Source: Moritella sp. 5
GTDB lineage: Bacteria; Pseudomonadota; Gammaproteobacteria; Enterobacterales; Moritellaceae
NCBI RefSeq assembly: GCF_018219455.1
Contig: NZ_CP056122.1
Span: forward strand, 3,658,001-3,722,000
Reading direction: 5' to 3'
DNA length: 64,000 nt
Translations under genes and position numbers: made by a program
Part shown: positions 18,247 to 63,009 of the stretch, piece by piece
Position numbering within the stretch: position 1 is the first letter of the stretch
Layout: every line of letters starts with the position of its first letter
The notes under the pieces: generated by a model
Told to the model about the DNA's origin: nothing
Databases searched by the model: none
What the model saw: the letters and a program-made list of their open reading frames with translations, nothing else

Positions 18247-19287
18247 ATGCGTATAGAACAAGAATTGAAGCTAGGTTTTAAAGATGTACTTTTCCGCCCA
18301 AAACGTTCAACTCTAAAGAGTCGTTCACAAGTAAGCTTAGAGCGTACATTCACTTTCCCTAACAGCAAGTACACTTGGACAGGTGTACCAGTTATTGCTG
18401 CAAACATGGATACTGTAGGTACATTTGAAGCGGCAAAAGAACTTGCTGCACACAAAATGTTAACAGCTGTACATAAGCATTACACTGTTGCCCAATGGAA
18501 AGAGTTCCTAGAAGCAAACCCAGAAATCTTTGACCATATCTTTGTATCTACTGGTACATCAGATTCAGATTTCGAAAAACTTCAACAAGTTCTAGCATTA
18601 GATGAGCGTTTACAGTTTATCTGTATCGATGTAGCTAATGGTTACTCAGAATTTTTTATTAATTTCGTACGTAAAGTACGTGCAGCGTACCCTTCTAAAA
18701 CGATTATGGCTGGTAACGTAGTTACTGGTGAAATCACAGAAGAACTTATCCTGTCTGGCGCAGATATCATCAAAGTTGGTATCGGCCCAGGTTCAGTATG
18801 TACAACACGTGTTAAAACAGGTGTTGGTTACCCACAACTGTCTGCAATCATCGAATGTGCAGATGCTGCACACGGTCTTGGTGGCATGGTGGTTGGTGAT
18901 GGTGGTTGTTCTTGCGCTGGTGATGTTGCTAAAGCATTCGGCGGCGGCGCAGACTTCGTTATGCTTGGCGGCATGTTAGCAGGTCACGACGAAAGTGGCG
19001 GCGAGCTGTGTGAAGTTGATGGCAAGAAAACGAAGAAATTCTATGGCATGAGCTCTACCACTGCGATGAACAAACACGCAGGTGGTGTTGCGAAATACCG
19101 TGCTTCAGAAGGTAAAACTGTAGAAGTACCTTACCGTGGTCCAATCGAAAACACTGTTTTCGATATCCTAGGTGGCGTTCGTTCGACTTGTACTTACGTT
19201 GGCGCAGCATCATTAAAAGAGCTAAGCAAACGAACTACCTTTGTCCGCGTACTTGAGCAAGAAAATAACGTATTCGGTAAAGAATAA
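18247..19287 (+). CDS. guaC: GMP reductase GuaC
   Basis: NADPH-dependent GMP reductase that deaminates GMP to IMP in purine salvage. It is the (beta/alpha)8 barrel of the IMPDH/GMPR family without CBS domains. The catalytic Cys185 lies in '[11 protein letters not shown]'. '[11 protein letters not shown]' (49-59), '[10 protein letters not shown]' and '[14 protein letters not shown]' are typical of GuaC. The 346-residue length equals the E. coli enzyme. The start lies after a weak AGAAGA site. Downstream is a strong terminator, and beyond it the accessory region begins. Confidence 0.97.
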
Positions 19288-19306: not shown

Positions 19307-19380
19307 GGTCTAGAACTACATATTTAAGCTAACAAAGGCGAGCATTGATATGGGCATGTCCATTATAATGCTCGCCTTTT
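19307..19380 (+). repeat. Direct repeat copy A (guaC 3' region)
   Basis: This 74-base stretch, starting GGTCTAGAACT and ending with the guaC terminator, recurs at 23332-23406 with about eight differences by eye (about 89% identity). The pair brackets a 4-kb block of genes with unfamiliar products and may mark an insertion. Confidence 0.85.
19334..19380 (+). terminator. Rho-independent terminator of guaC
   Basis: A stem AAAGGCGAGCATT / AATGCTCGCCTTT is followed by T residues 47 bases past the stop codon. A diverged copy of this whole region occurs at 23332-23406. Confidence 0.88.
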
Positions 19381-19427: not shown

Positions 19428-20885
19428 TTAACCCAACATAAAATCATCTAAGTCTGAAATACTTTTAATTATTTTATCTTCAGGTACATGATGTTCACGA
19501 GCAAGATCAACACTAAGTTCCAGCAAATTAGCATTGTTTTCAAGATCAAATGCAGCGTCAGTGATACTCGTTAAATGTTCAAATTTAGATTCAATGCTTT
19601 TAAATACTTTTAGCTCTTTAGCGTTTAAGCTACTCGAGAATTCACTGACTCTCTTTTGAAATCCATTGATAATTTTTTCATCTGAACGTTTGATTAGATC
19701 AATGCAAAATTTAGCCGCCATGGAACCAACTAAAGCACCCACTACAGGTATTGGTATTAAAGTTTGCCCAACCATTGACGCTAAACCGACTGCAGCAGAC
19801 TCTCCACATACGAGTAAACTCAGATCAATAAACTCATCAAGTCCAAGCTCACCACTCTTATATTGCATTGATAAGCTGCCAACCCCTTTGGAAGCTGTAA
19901 CCACGGCACCAGCGAATGGTGCCGACATTGCTGCATAATTTGTTAAACCATAAAGAGCAGCACCTGAGAAGCCACCAATTAACGAAGCTTTCCCCATATC
20001 AATACCGAGTTCTTTCCAATCGGATTTGGAGAACTGCCCTTTGAATAAGTTTCTACCTTGTTTATGCTTCTGATAAACATTACTAACAAAACTTACCCCA
20101 GCACCAACCACTGCACCGCCTAAAGCAGCGTTACCCATTTCACCTAGGCTTTCTTTGTATGCATCATCAGCTTTTATATCAGCTATTTTTACATCATTTT
20201 CAACTTTTAAATCAGCATTATGCTGTTCTAAAGTTCCATCAGCTCTATATAACTGCACTTCGTCATATGTAGAGTTCCCAGGTTGTACAACTTCATTAAA
20301 TGATTTACCAGAAAGAGCTTCAATCGCTCCAACTTTTTCCTTAATGGCATTTATAGTTGTTAGCTTAACGCCGTCAACTGACTCACCGTCTAATATTTTC
20401 TGTATCTGTTGATGAGTATCTTTGGGGATATGGTAATACGAGCCATCTCGACCAAATTGCTCGTACTTTTCCATGTGGTCCATCACATGTTTTAGATTAT
20501 TATTTAAACCATTAATAAACTTAGACTGAACTTCTACCCCATCTATGATGTAGTCTTCTGGGGCGATTCTTCCAACGCCTTCAAAGGTAGCGCTAAAGTC
20601 TGTAGCAGCTGTAACCTGCTGATTAAGTGCTTCCTTTGCATTTCTAATTGCAACTTCGATTTTTTCAGCGACTTCACCATGCTTAGTATCCATTCGCCCC
20701 AAAAAGTTGGATGGATCTTTTAGCTGTTCTTTAACTTCATCAATTTGCTTAATCGCGAATAAAAGAGCTTTATCTTGTTGATCTATAGCCATATTCATCG
20801 CTTGCTGACGAGCGATTTCCATTTGATGGGACAGTGATGCTAAAAGCTGATCTTGAACTGAAACTTTATCTTTAAGTACTGACAT
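19428..20885 (-). CDS. Unknown membrane protein, coiled coil plus glycine-rich helices
   Basis: I do not recognise a family for this 485-residue protein. Residues 1-95 are charged, helical and probably coiled coil. A middle soluble part follows (about 100-240). Glycine- and alanine-rich hydrophobic segments lie at about 251-270, 299-332 and 353-394. The tail is a charged helical region. Glycine-zipper-like spacing (G-x3-G) in the hydrophobic parts suggests membrane insertion or oligomerisation. Its ATG abuts the stop of the gene before it (TAG then ATG), so the two are almost certainly translationally coupled and act together. It lies in the block bracketed by the guaC terminator repeats. Function unknown. 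Confidence 0.75.
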   Translation of the reverse strand: MSVLKDKVSVQDQLLASLSHQMEIARQQAMNMAIDQQDKALLFAIKQIDEVKEQLKDPSNFLGRMDTKHGEVAEKIEVAIRNAKEALNQQVTAATDFSATFEGVGRIAPEDYIIDGVEVQSKFINGLNNNLKHVMDHMEKYEQFGRDGSYYHIPKDTHQQIQKILDGESVDGVKLTTINAIKEKVGAIEALSGKSFNEVVQPGNSTYDEVQLYRADGTLEQHNADLKVENDVKIADIKADDAYKESLGEMGNAALGGAVVGAGVSFVSNVYQKHKQGRNLFKGQFSKSDWKELGIDMGKASLIGGFSGAALYGLTNYAAMSAPFAGAVVTASKGVGSLSMQYKSGELGLDEFIDLSLLVCGESAAVGLASMVGQTLIPIPVVGALVGSMAAKFCIDLIKRSDEKIINGFQKRVSEFSSSLNAKELKVFKSIESKFEHLTSITDAAFDLENNANLLELSVDLAREHHVPEDKIIKSISDLDDFMLG

Positions 20886-21725
20886 CTAAATACGTTCTTT
20901 GATCATTAAAGACAATCCGTTGATGTGGTTAATTAGAGCTCCGAGTTTCCCTTTCTGCTCAGCATCAAACTTCAAGTAATCGCTAGGAGCATTAGCCCTC
21001 AATAAGCAACAAAGTTCTAAACACCCTAACGAATGTTTCTCTGTTAATTTAGAACAAGCCGAAACTTTAATATTCATCGTTTTTAACTTAGATGTTTCAA
21101 TTCTGATTTTTTTAATTTCTTTTTCGGCTTTATCTGCAATGTCTTGATTTTTACTACGGGTAAATAAACCTGCCCCAGCTAAGCTAACAGCTCCGATTCC
21201 CCAACCGATAGGACCTGCTAATGCTAAAAGAGTATTACCAGCAGCCATACCACCACCTCCAGCAGCAAGAGCACCACCGCCTAGCCATGCTAACGCAGCA
21301 TTTGTTGCAGCTGCGCCACCTAAAGCTGATATAGCAGTACCAGTAGATGCTGCACCAAATGTAGTCGCAACAGCCATTGCAGCTGTAGGTGCAAACATAG
21401 CTACACCAGCTCCAGCCATCGCCCCACCAATTCCACTTTTACCTATGTTTGATTTTTCATATTCTTCATTGAGAATTTTAATTTTGTTATTGAACTCTTT
21501 TATATCCGCCTTAAATACATTAAATGCTTTATCAAATTCTTTTGGCGAGTTTGCAAGTGTATTAATATAGTTTTCGATTGCAACAAGTGTGTCGACACTG
21601 CTTTGTTGTCTAATTTCAAAAAGTTTAATAGAGTTTTTTTCGATTAATTTCGCTTGAGATTTATATGCTCTTTCTGCTGATTCCAGTTTCGCTAAGGCTG
21701 ATTTACGCAAATCATTTTTTAACAT
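20886..21725 (-). CDS. Unknown glycine/alanine-rich membrane protein
   Basis: A 279-residue protein of unknown family. Residues 1-92 form a charged, Lys/Glu-rich helical region, probably coiled coil. Residues 95-188 are an unusually long Gly/Ala-rich hydrophobic stretch with repeats such as 'GGAMAGAGVAM', 'LGGGALAAGGGG' and 'LALAGPIGWGIG'. The tail is basic, then helical, with a 'LGCLELCCLL' cluster. Such a stretch resembles membrane-inserting or pore-like segments. It is the upstream partner of the 485-residue protein, whose start codon follows its stop directly. A membrane-active role, for example in defence or toxicity, is inference from architecture only. Confidence 0.75.
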   Translation of the reverse strand: MLKNDLRKSALAKLESAERAYKSQAKLIEKNSIKLFEIRQQSSVDTLVAIENYINTLANSPKEFDKAFNVFKADIKEFNNKIKILNEEYEKSNIGKSGIGGAMAGAGVAMFAPTAAMAVATTFGAASTGTAISALGGAAATNAALAWLGGGALAAGGGGMAAGNTLLALAGPIGWGIGAVSLAGAGLFTRSKNQDIADKAEKEIKKIRIETSKLKTMNIKVSACSKLTEKHSLGCLELCCLLRANAPSDYLKFDAEQKGKLGALINHINGLSLMIKERI

Positions 21726-21959
21726 TAATATTTCACTGATTATTTAAATAATACCGCATACAATAACACTTAACGTTAAACAAAGTAGTTAATTACGCTT
21801 AAATAACAGTGAATTATAGATATTTCATACACTTTGACATTGATATTTACATATATACATAAAGTGATATAAATAAATGTGACTACGTAGCGATTTCACT
21901 CTAAATAATTTATTATTCTAATTAGTATTCATATAATCTTGTACGCCAAATAGTGTAAA

Positions 21960-21990
21960 TTAGTTGGTGCAATAAAATTACACCAACTAA
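21960..21990. other. Perfect 10-bp hairpin next to the small gene
   Basis: TTAGTTGGTG and CACCAACTAA are separated by an 11-base loop, just past the stop of the 46-residue gene. There is no T-run on its minus-strand side, so it may cap or process the transcript rather than terminate it. Confidence 0.5.
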
Positions 21991-21994
21991 AAAA

Positions 21995-22135
21995 CTATTT
22001 ACCTTTAGGTGGATTATTCCCACGACCTTTACCAGAAACGTTCCCTGTAGTACTTGGTCCATTTGGTGGACGTGTTGACGATTTTGGTGAAGTTGGCTTT
22101 GCTGCTGTTGTTTGTGACGTAGTATTTTTAGACAT
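21995..22135 (-). CDS. Small Pro/Thr/Lys-rich protein (46 aa)
   Basis: A 46-codon frame I translated by hand. It begins MSKNTTSQTT and ends with basic, Gly/Asn/Pro-rich 'GKGRGNNPPKGK'. TAAGGA lies seven bases before the ATG, a strong ribosome-binding site, and the frame is low in hydrophobic residues. It lies about 270 bases upstream of the 279-residue membrane protein gene on the same strand. It may be an intrinsically disordered accessory or regulatory peptide. No family recognised. Confidence 0.55.
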   Translation of the reverse strand: MSKNTTSQTTAAKPTSPKSSTRPPNGPSTTGNVSGKGRGNNPPKGK

Positions 22136-22175
22136 GGTATTTCCTTATATTATATTTTAAATTAATCCCCCGCTT

Positions 22176-22220
22176 GGGACATGCATAAGTTAACAAAGGT
22201 GCTCGGGACAGCTAGGGACA
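22176..22220. promoter_or_regulatory. Three GGGACA direct repeats between divergent genes
   Basis: GGGACA occurs at 22176-22181, 22205-22210 and 22215-22220, between the small minus-strand gene and the 281-residue plus-strand gene. Repeats at this position are plausible regulator sites for both. Confidence 0.4.
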
Positions 22221-22244
22221 AAATCACATTGAAAAGGATTATTT

Positions 22245-23090
22245 GTGAGTTATTTTGATGATGCAGATAAAAGGCGAACTAAAGAGCTTCAAAAATCAAT
22301 CAAACAAACGATTGCTTTACTTGGCTGGAGCCTGAAAGATTTTGTAGGTAAGTACATGATTGAAACCCATGATTATGTTGGAGAAGAAGATATTAATCAG
22401 TTCTATGAGACCGTCCGAAAACAGATGGAACGTGACTCAACAAGTAAACAGTTGTTAGTTAAATATCATTCTTTTTTATTTTCCACAGATGAATATAAGA
22501 AATTACGAACAATATCAGATAACTCTTCTACGCCTCACAGTTATCCATTAATGAATATATCTGAAACACCTTATGAATCACCTTCAAATAATCCAAAGGA
22601 AGAAGAAAGAGACGTTCTAAGCATGGCAATTTCGTATGCAGAAATGATGGGGATTTGTTGGGATTTCACCTTAATAAAGAATGACTTAGTAACTTACGAC
22701 TCAATATTAGAATTCGATGGACCTTTTTATCTTGTCGTTTATCAATGTGATTTTGGCTTTAATGGTGGTAATGGTTGCCGTGGTGTTGGAATAATTGAAA
22801 TCCAAGAAAAGCGTCGTCTATTTGGTGGTTTTTTCATTACAGATAAAAAATGTGAGCTTGACTTCGGTGGTGCAAGATTCTCTCACGTTGTTGGTATGAA
22901 AGAAGGTGAACTTATTATTATGGTCAAAGACTTTGATTCACTTGACCTTCAGGTTGGACAAACCCTTTTTGCCAAAGTAATCTTATCCAAAAATATTGAT
23001 AACTCAAATGAGTGGAAAGTTAAGTCTAAAGAATATATTCATAAAGATTTAGCTACTGACCTTTATAAGTTAGAATCAGGTTACACATAA
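22245..23090 (+). CDS. Unknown protein, helical N-terminus plus beta-rich domain (281 aa)
   Basis: No family recognised. Residues 1-85 are helical and charged ('TIALLGWSLKDFVGKYM', then a segment rich in Glu, Asp and Lys) and could be a small helical DNA- or protein-binding domain. Residues about 88-125 are a Ser/Pro/Asn linker. The rest alternates short strands with Gly-Gly turns ('CDFGFNGGNGCRGVG', 'LFGGFFI', 'DFGGARFSHVVG') and looks like a soluble sensor or effector domain. The start is GTG with AAAAGGA upstream. It is divergent from the membrane-protein genes and lies inside the repeat-bracketed block, so it may regulate or trigger them; that is inference. Confidence 0.7.
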   Translation: MSYFDDADKRRTKELQKSIKQTIALLGWSLKDFVGKYMIETHDYVGEEDINQFYETVRKQMERDSTSKQLLVKYHSFLFSTDEYKKLRTISDNSSTPHSYPLMNISETPYESPSNNPKEEERDVLSMAISYAEMMGICWDFTLIKNDLVTYDSILEFDGPFYLVVYQCDFGFNGGNGCRGVGIIEIQEKRRLFGGFFITDKKCELDFGGARFSHVVGMKEGELIIMVKDFDSLDLQVGQTLFAKVILSKNIDNSNEWKVKSKEYIHKDLATDLYKLESGYT

Positions 23091-23331: not shown

Positions 23332-23406
23332 GGTCTAGAACTGCGTATTTAAGCTAACAAAGGCGAGTATTGATGTGGGCATAGTCCATTATCATTTTCG
23401 CCTTTT
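23332..23406 (+). repeat. Direct repeat copy B (diverged guaC terminator region)
   Basis: Second copy of 19307-19380, including the terminator-like stem, now imperfect (CATTTTCG in place of AATGCTCG). It may still end transcripts from the 281-residue gene. Between here and 23599 there is only a 10-11-base imperfect hairpin (23543-23575). Confidence 0.8.
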
Positions 23407-57020: not shown

Positions 57021-57040
57021 GCCCCGCAAGCAATGTGACG

Positions 57041-57105
57041 TTGTATAATTTTGGCAATATGGGCCTTAAGTCTCTACTCTGAAACCGTAAATTTCAGACC
57101 TACAA
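57041..57105 (+). ncRNA. Purine riboswitch aptamer, guanine/xanthine type
   Basis: The three-way junction can be drawn directly. P1 is TTGTA/TACAA, followed by the conserved TATAAT. P2 is capped by AATATGG, J2/3 is GTCTCTAC, and P3 is the perfect TCTGAAA/TTTCAGA with loop CCGTAAA. The specificity base (position 74 in B. subtilis xpt numbering) is C at 57100, which pairs with guanine rather than adenine. It precedes a purine permease and xpt, the classic targets. Downstream, 57101-57106 can pair instead with 57118-57123, before a T-run. Confidence 0.92.
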
Positions 57106-57212
57106 TGAAGCAGGATAATTGTACCTTTTTTCTGGTATAGTTCCCCTACCCAAGTTTATACTTCGGAATATTGTCATTTTAAATCAACCAACTAAATAGT
57201 AATGGGTGTTTA

Positions 57213-62227: not shown

Positions 62228-62775
62228 TATTCTGTTACTCCGTAGAACTTGAAGTTATGACAAATACTTATTATTCACTTATAACTGACACCAACAATGC
62301 AATGACACACGCAGTAATGACAGGAAGGCTAGTAAGTAAAGTCATTAAACAATAACCATAAAAATAACAAGGTTAAAGCGCTGACGAAGGGTTACCTGTG
62401 TATTTTTAACATCAGTCACATTATTAGTTTAACTTCATGATGAACATCTCACTCGGACGATATTAAAGAGCGCCAAATAGAGAAAACCAAGAGCAACAAC
62501 CCAAGAAAAGGAAAAGAATAGCCTTTAACACTGTAAATTTATGTAAATACAGGGCTATGTAAACCAGTGCAAACAGATAGTTATGCAAATCGAATGCTTT
62601 TTTAGATAAGAAACGTTATAACGCCAAATTAGTAGTATGGAGATTAAAATGAGTATCTTGTTTGAACCAAAATACCTTAATGCTTGATGAGTCGTACAAA
62701 ATTTGTGCAACTGCATATCTATATTGTTAACAGCGTTGCTTTTATTATTGTTTATCATTAAAGTGCCGCGACTTA
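62228..62775. other. Gap upstream of hcnA
   Basis: AT-rich and without a supported gene. It should hold the hcnA promoter on the minus strand and the promoter of the cobalamin riboswitch on the plus strand. I could not pick either with confidence. Confidence 0.4.
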
Positions 62776-62907
62776 CAGTAGGTGCTCAATATTAAACAGC
62801 GTGTTACCGCAATTAAGGATTGAGTTAAACGGGAAGTTTGGTGTGAAACCAACGCTGCCCCCGCAACGGTAATCAACGAATGTTGAGAGCCCGATACCGG
62901 CCTATTG
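62776..62907 (+). ncRNA. Cobalamin (AdoCbl) riboswitch
   Basis: The B12 box is clear: GGTGTGAAACC, then GCTGCCCCCGCAACGGTAA, then a distal stem ending CCGATACCGGCC. The closing stem CAGTAGG (62776-62782) pairs with CCTATTG (62901-62907), with one G-U. It points to a plus-strand gene. A 6-bp hairpin with T-runs (62939-62970) and an SD-covering hairpin (63010-63026) lie downstream as possible expression platforms. Confidence 0.9.
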
Positions 62908-63009
62908 AAATATTACCGTATTGCGGAGGGCGATAGCGGAATAGAAAAATCCTATTCTGTTTTGCTTTTTGGCAATAAACACATACATGGTTTTTTTGTA
63001 TTCTGCCAT

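Follow-up and report, generated by a model that had tools for sequence, protein, structure and literature searches.

What do the four genes that stand between two copies of the guaC terminator in Moritella sp. 5 encode, and do they belong together? We addressed this question computationally in a 64,000-nucleotide (nt) stretch of contig NZ_CP056122.1 (positions 3,658,001 to 3,722,000; hereafter the window), where two abutting minus-strand genes, here called A and B, lie beside an open reading frame (ORF) of 46 amino acids (aa) and a divergent ORF of 281 aa. An earlier note, made from the sequence alone, had placed all four genes and the abutting pair correctly (Table 1), and had proposed them as one undescribed candidate system. 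Our analysis places A and B, as a new member, in PDC-M09 of PADLOC, a candidate family already known, and separates them from the 46-aa and 281-aa genes, which are a neighboring, independent module. Our leading but tentative reading is that A and B form a membrane-associated two-component candidate anti-phage system that arrived behind guaC as cargo, and in which B would carry a nuclease-like head.

Identity and coupling of the A–B pair

Against PADLOC-DB, A matched PDC-M09A over residues 1–279 (E 6.5e-110) and B matched PDC-M09B over residues 7–484 (E 3.7e-183). The two genes are adjacent and co-directional, with no gap between the stop of A and the start of B. Neither protein had a match above cut-off in Pfam or NCBIfam, and the 46-aa and 281-aa proteins had none in PADLOC-DB. 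The pair, termed undescribed in the earlier note, is thus a catalogued candidate; a full-text literature search for the name PDC-M09 returned no paper, and literature searches found no mechanism for the pair. The cited part of one source states that PDCs derive from a ‘guilt-by-embedding’ approach and are for the most part unvalidated (PMC12988326). WonAB was considered as a named relative and rejected, since it is described, in the part of the source cited, as an ATPase plus a nuclease (PMC12137116).

To describe the pair beyond the window, we use a set of 93 loci (L numbers; genomes are given G numbers) kept from 113 fetched loci at a B score above 150 bits, each 3 to 21 kb long. Six duplicate loci (L001, L003, L004, L012, L013, and L014) were dropped and near-identical ones remain, such that the 81 rows of the B alignment correspond to 70 clusters at 95% identity. 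Of the 93 loci, 92 yielded A, always on the strand of B, and L039 did not; two contigs (L016 and L085) hold only part of A. The genes are separated by −70 to +187 nt in 89 loci and by more in two, L072 and L084, where B is in pieces. L088 holds a fusion, one ORF that PADLOC matches to B and to the first ~110 residues of A. Over 77 loci, the distance matrices of A and B show a correlation of r 0.87, to which shared ancestry contributes; in 1000 permutations r did not exceed 0.16. The pairing is far beyond chance: A and B are neighbors on one strand in all of the 92 other loci that yielded A. The earlier description of a coupled membrane pair is borne out, and the pair is conserved. A tandem pair of A-type genes precedes B in one locus (L061:7900-9816).

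Phyletic distribution

The pair is sparsely distributed among close relatives and recurs on mobile elements. B occurs in two of 59 relatives, namely the window's own genome and G038, and is absent from all 10 other congeners; across 369 genomes of the class, the PADLOC model was matched in three, in one case marginally. By comparison, 59 of 72,556 plasmid records carry B, 46 of them from Klebsiella and 29 predicted to be conjugative, along with one of 50,697 phage records. In genome contigs, B was confirmed in 227 places, of which the best 80 were kept; judged by record title, the hosts include Gamma-, Beta-, and Alphaproteobacteria, Cyanobacteriota, Bacillota, Bacteroidota, Chloroflexota, and Fibrobacter, and the plasmids add Actinomycetota. 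Viral contigs yielded 19 matches, six spanning most of B (L095–L100) and 13 covering only part of its C-terminal half, and no close relative of A was confirmed there with the window protein as the sole query. With the Klebsiella pair as a DNA query, 11 of 5,426 E. coli genomes matched: five with at least 80% of the query covered, one with 63%, and five with 5–7%. In the two Klebsiella plasmids examined, tellurite-resistance genes lie a few kb from the pair, and in one Lactococcus plasmid it is found near macrolide-resistance genes (entries L006, L012, and L215).

A possible likeness of protein A to the tails of bacterial dynamins

The Gly/Ala-rich hydrophobic segments flanked by charged helices that had been noted in both proteins are present as a single stretch in A and as three zones in B (about residues 246–272, 293–336, and 347–400), and membrane association of the pair is very likely. 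In A, glycine and alanine make up 57% of residues 97–178, with hydrophobic windows at about 94–191. This segment is also the most conserved part of the protein: in an 82-row alignment (weighted), 43 of its 82 positions are at least 90% identical, as against nine of 96 and four of 101 in the flanking helices.

Three of the 92 loci (L009, L038, and L087) carry helix-turn-helix (HTH)-dynamin genes upstream of A, on the same strand and at a distance of 160–296 nt; the dynamin loci L038 and L087 are 91% identical, leaving two lineages in total. Dynamin_N and HTH domains were found in two of the four proteins of this group, with the Pfam Dynamin_N matches falling in the L038 protein and the second dynamin of L009. 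A profile built from the four dynamins scored real A proteins at up to 27.4 bits, with a median of 10.7 (82 of 82 scored) and 25 of the 82 at E ≤1e-4, whereas no segment-shuffled A exceeded 9.9 bits (409 of 410 scored). No comparable gap between real and shuffled sequences appeared with control profiles for JukA, integrase, and WYL. The dynamin region matched by A is the C-terminal one, and A also weakly matches the PADLOC LeoBC model (E 5.1e-5), while neither A nor B has a Pfam Dynamin_N match at E 1. We infer that A is a dynamin-tail-like membrane scaffold with no GTPase of its own.

Resemblance to dynamin tails would also suit a pair engaged in housekeeping or stress-related membrane remodeling. 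That alternative is disfavored and very improbable, given the patchy presence of B (two of 59 relatives, the window's own genome included) and its mobile contexts. A stronger alternative is a bipartite pore-forming or membrane-disrupting abortive-infection system, with the head of B serving as a sensor or regulatory domain rather than a nuclease. We regard it as a close rival and a genuine possibility: the membrane segment is the most conserved part of A, as for a channel or an ordered oligomer; the helix–hydrophobic–helix layout is suitable; and A weakly matches alpha-pore-forming toxin subunits (E 0.0015 and 0.0019), although far below the curated cut-offs. Weak matches to SLATT_fungal, a two-transmembrane (2TM) effector family, were likewise obtained for eight of 81 B and four of 82 A proteins (best E 0.0047 and 0.053). 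The head of B speaks against it.

An invariant, possibly nuclease-like head in protein B

The B alignment comprises the window protein and its counterparts from 80 of the 93 loci, leaving out rows outside 440–520 aa, repeats, and six plasmid rows. Ten residues are invariant in all 81 rows: H69, G70, E74, D111, Q120, K122, P154, Y207, Q211, and W290; the same ten are invariant in an 87-row alignment that includes the plasmid rows. Among them are E, D, and QxK residues of the catalytic type known from the PD-(D/E)xK superfamily. Their order, with eight residues between D and Q, resembles that of PD-(D/E)xK nucleases, and crude propensities give helix, three strands, helix, and strand for the head. 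The invariance of several polar residues in every row suggests catalysis by the head. Of the earlier note's two suggestions, pore formation and membrane remodeling, the second is strengthened by the likeness of A to a dynamin tail; a pore alone is possible, but with a B head that is both invariant and enzyme-like, a nuclease-like action is no less likely.

Distant relatives extend this pattern. The ~840-aa genes directly downstream of B in L017, L018, and L095 show a similar E/D/QxK arrangement, much of which also persists in a homologous frame of L070 and in an E. coli copy (L214) that shares 99% identity with the L017 gene. These genes (L017:11465-13987, L018, and L095; L214:12328-14850) combine a second E-D-QxK-type head with a hydrophobic tail, and are a possible third component in Enterobacter-type loci and in one E. 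coli. On an Azospirillum plasmid (L217:4033-7891), a sister family has its genes in the opposite order, WYL, B′, A′. The A profile gives 93 bits for A′ and the B profile 74 bits for B′, and B′ as a query finds the window's B at E 1e-9 from B′ residue 76 onward. A search for this sister family in 398 genomes of the phylum gave four matches, all to the B family itself, and a search of viral contigs gave none.

In L101, a contig from a viral collection, the tail of B (56.7 bits) stands behind a different N-terminal part, which carries an HNH-like signature and weakly matches a PHROG endonuclease VII family (E 0.053). The next gene has an A-like layout and matches A′ at E 2e-13 in a six-sequence comparison, with only 4.9 bits against the A profile. 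This apparent head swap is the strongest argument for a nuclease-like head in B, without amounting to proof. A nuclease-like head is plausible, if slightly short of an even chance.

Genomic neighborhoods and the predicted role

The contexts of the pair include recurrent regulators and, in part, defense-type islands. WYL-type regulators were found in 20 of the 93 loci, and in seven, representing three lineages by B identity, the WYL gene lies directly upstream on the same strand at 4–35 nt. In the cited part of the source, the WYL repressors BrxR and CapW control BREX and CBASS (PMC12255303). JukA lies directly downstream in five related loci, integrases occur in eight, and restriction genes and dynamin-like GTPases in some. 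Among individual cases, E. coli ET896 has an island with a YafY-family gene, A, and B, with BREX about 8 kb on; E. coli PSJ-29 has a WYL-domain regulator, A, B, and the 840-aa gene, with a SIR2 gene about 3.6 kb away; and in Leptolyngbya an McrBC gene adjoins the pair. A defense role for the pair is predicted and is likely.

Carriage on plasmids, 29 of 59 of them predicted to be conjugative, and on contigs of viral collections would also suit a pair that acts on behalf of its own mobile element against plasmids, competing phages, or superinfecting elements. The pair is also found in chromosomal islands with classical defense genes, and no immunity-type partner gene recurs in most loci; on this evidence we consider such a role improbable.

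Several observations weigh against an anti-phage pair with a dynamin-tail-like A and a nuclease-like B. At the level of function, two other PDCs were tested with no evidence of defense, according to the cited part of the report (PMC12409345). Near and far neighbors matched PADLOC families in nearly equal numbers (115 against 117 at E 1e-10, from 130 of 168 nearest and 130 of 130 far ones); among the 25 families listed, only WYL (6) and JukA (4) were matched by more than two near neighbors, and none by more than two far ones. This comparison was set aside as uninformative on defense enrichment. For A, a profile–profile comparison with the dynamins gives only 25% probability, and the L088 fusion keeps recognizably only the first ~110 residues, without the Gly/Ala-rich motif. 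For the head of B, the profiles of Mrr_cat (15 of 22 matches) and NERD (16 of 43 matches), the two member families compared, returned probabilities below 1%. No nuclease is present among the 25 Pfam families matched by most of the 81 B members, and a PDB profile search of B gave chance-level matches only. The remote 517-aa protein of L046 aligns with B but has SxK at the QxK position; B′ of L217 scores only 7.0 bits with the head profile, its E/D/QxK having been read by eye; and the L101 head has no Pfam match at E 0.01, its HNH reading resting on the signature and on the weak PHROG match.

The 46-aa and 281-aa genes form a separate module

That all four genes lie within one insertion is the point in favor of a single four-gene system. 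The searches separate them. Among the fetched pair loci, the 281-aa query hit nothing beyond the copies in the window itself, and hits of the 46-aa query other than its own copies were chance-level stretches (best E 0.004), leaving no convincing homolog of either in the 93 pair loci. Conversely, B was not found in any of 12 genomes with relatives of the 46-aa and 281-aa genes, in a search that had no positive control of its own, though the B query elsewhere finds G000 and G038. With both small genes recurring together where B was not found, the single-system proposal is disfavored and is the least credible of the explanations weighed here.

The 281-aa protein occurs in 10 of 295 genomes of the order and the 46-aa protein in seven of 197, the window's own genome included in both counts. 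The latter belongs to a small family whose members end in a PSxTGNxSGxGRGNNPPK-like signature, and relatives of the N-terminal ~90 aa of the 281-aa protein are, elsewhere, proteins of 112–143 aa. Around 11 such places, seven other relatives of the 46-aa protein were seen, six with a divergent neighbor of the 281-aa N-terminal family, recognized by BLAST in five (L201, L202, L203, L208, and L209) and by motif in one (L204), and one without (L207). The remaining four (L205, L206, L210, and L211) have a 281-type gene with no 46-aa relative seen, which at so small a size could be missed. Across 101 of the 127 proteins encoded there, PADLOC identified type I restriction and Septu genes along with other candidates. 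As a general pattern, most of the tiny 46-aa-type proteins have as divergent neighbor a small protein that bears a W-S...R-x-T-x-K domain, with defense genes in the same regions.

Between the divergent genes, two GGGACA copies whose starts lie 10 nt apart are conserved in all three aligned intergenic regions, and a third exact copy is confined to the window. The module is probably small and self-regulated. The best PDB matches of the 281-aa domain family are designed coiled coils, which we take as low-complexity chance. RptR was considered as the identity of the 281-aa N-terminal domain and rejected: there was no sequence link, and the PDB profile search returned no RptR chain.

The insertion site behind guaC

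The block is bracketed, as the earlier note had it, by copies of the guaC 3′ terminator, which are identical at 67 of 75 positions (E 4e-22). Because the congener G005 has the site with a single terminator copy, between guaC and the same right flank, and without the block, the block looks like a single insertion when compared with G005. Extra terminator copies of at least 47 nt occur in five of 10 congeners (G001, G002, G003, G004, and G007; within 17–20 kb downstream of guaC), and the genes between terminator copies vary from congener to congener. The guaC 3′ end in the genus thereby resembles an insertion hotspot, with variable cargo and terminator-like repeats separating units in those five congeners. 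None of the four genes of the block matched a recombinase family in Pfam or NCBIfam. Elsewhere, the window contains purine and cobalamin riboswitches (57021-57122 and 62770-62919).

Table 1. Features of the block behind guaC, in window coordinates
Feature	Positions	Strand	Remarks
guaC, GMP reductase	18247-19287	+	Chromosomal anchor of the insertion site; NCBIfam NF003470, E 4.5e-191
guaC terminator copy 1	19307-19380	+	Left boundary
Gene B, 485 aa, PDC-M09B	19428-20885	-	Coil and invariant head domain, followed by three hydrophobic zones and C-terminal helices
B residues 69-156, head	20418-20681	-	H69 G70 E74, D111, Q120-x-K122, P154
Gene A, 279 aa, PDC-M09A	20886-21725	-	Gly/Ala-rich membrane segment with helices on either side
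A residues 97-178, Gly/Ala-rich membrane segment	21192-21437	-	Conservation from the 82-row alignment
46-aa ORF, basic, Pro/Lys-rich	21995-22135	-	Separate module
Three copies of GGGACA in the intergenic region of the 46-aa and 281-aa genes	22176-22220	.	Possible operator
281-aa ORF, GTG start	22245-23090	+	Separate module
guaC terminator copy 2	23332-23406	+	Right boundary

Proposed mechanism and significance

Under the anti-phage reading, A would sit in the membrane as a dynamin-tail-like scaffold lacking its own GTPase, with B beside it, anchored through hydrophobic hairpins and carrying the nuclease-like head. Phage infection would trigger the A–B complex at the inner membrane, the head of B would attack incoming or replicating DNA, and its hairpins may also breach the membrane; the infection would be blocked or aborted. 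More ambitiously, PDC-M09 and its sister loci could constitute a new class of membrane-bound nuclease immunity, built from a GTPase-less dynamin-tail scaffold A and a B whose single conserved Gly-rich membrane module carries different nuclease heads (E-D-QxK or HNH-like). We hold this to be rather unlikely as it stands; if true, invading DNA would be cut at the membrane, perhaps where it enters.

PDC-M09 is among the PADLOC candidates for which literature searches gave no described mechanism. With the invariant head of B, the resemblance of A to dynamin tails, and the apparent exchange of heads in a distant relative, a vague ‘membrane pair’ comes down to a few point mutants that would separate nuclease from pore. 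The locus also carries a warning on guilt by proximity, as a repeat-bracketed cluster can hold two unrelated modules.

Comparison with known systems

For the neighboring module, the 281-aa N-terminal domain has a possible analog in RptR, a small domain that, in the cited part of the source, is found beside defense genes with repeated promoter sites; RptR is 79 aa long and binds TAGCTA, whereas the repeats at the 281-aa gene are GGGACA (PMC12255303).

Within the pair, A shares with alpha-pore-forming toxin subunits of the XaxA and MakA type a hydrophobic stretch between helical parts, but falls far short of the curated cut-offs for these (17.9 bits as against 125, and 17.2 as against 320) and is paired with B. 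The head of B has the same E, D, QxK order as those PD-(D/E)xK nucleases that carry QxK (the Mrr type), and may share their pattern of helices and strands as far as crude propensities show; it differs from them in having no detectable profile similarity to Mrr or NERD and in being attached to a membrane module. Bacterial dynamin-like defense proteins, such as LeoBC and the HTH-dynamins, appear to resemble A in their C-terminal helical and Gly/Ala-rich membrane part, yet they have a GTPase, which A does not, and such a dynamin accompanies the pair in only three of 93 loci. As for PDC-M09, its entry in the PADLOC output has no function attached, and the window pair matches it over nearly the whole length of both proteins, with adjacent genes and no tested feature that differs.

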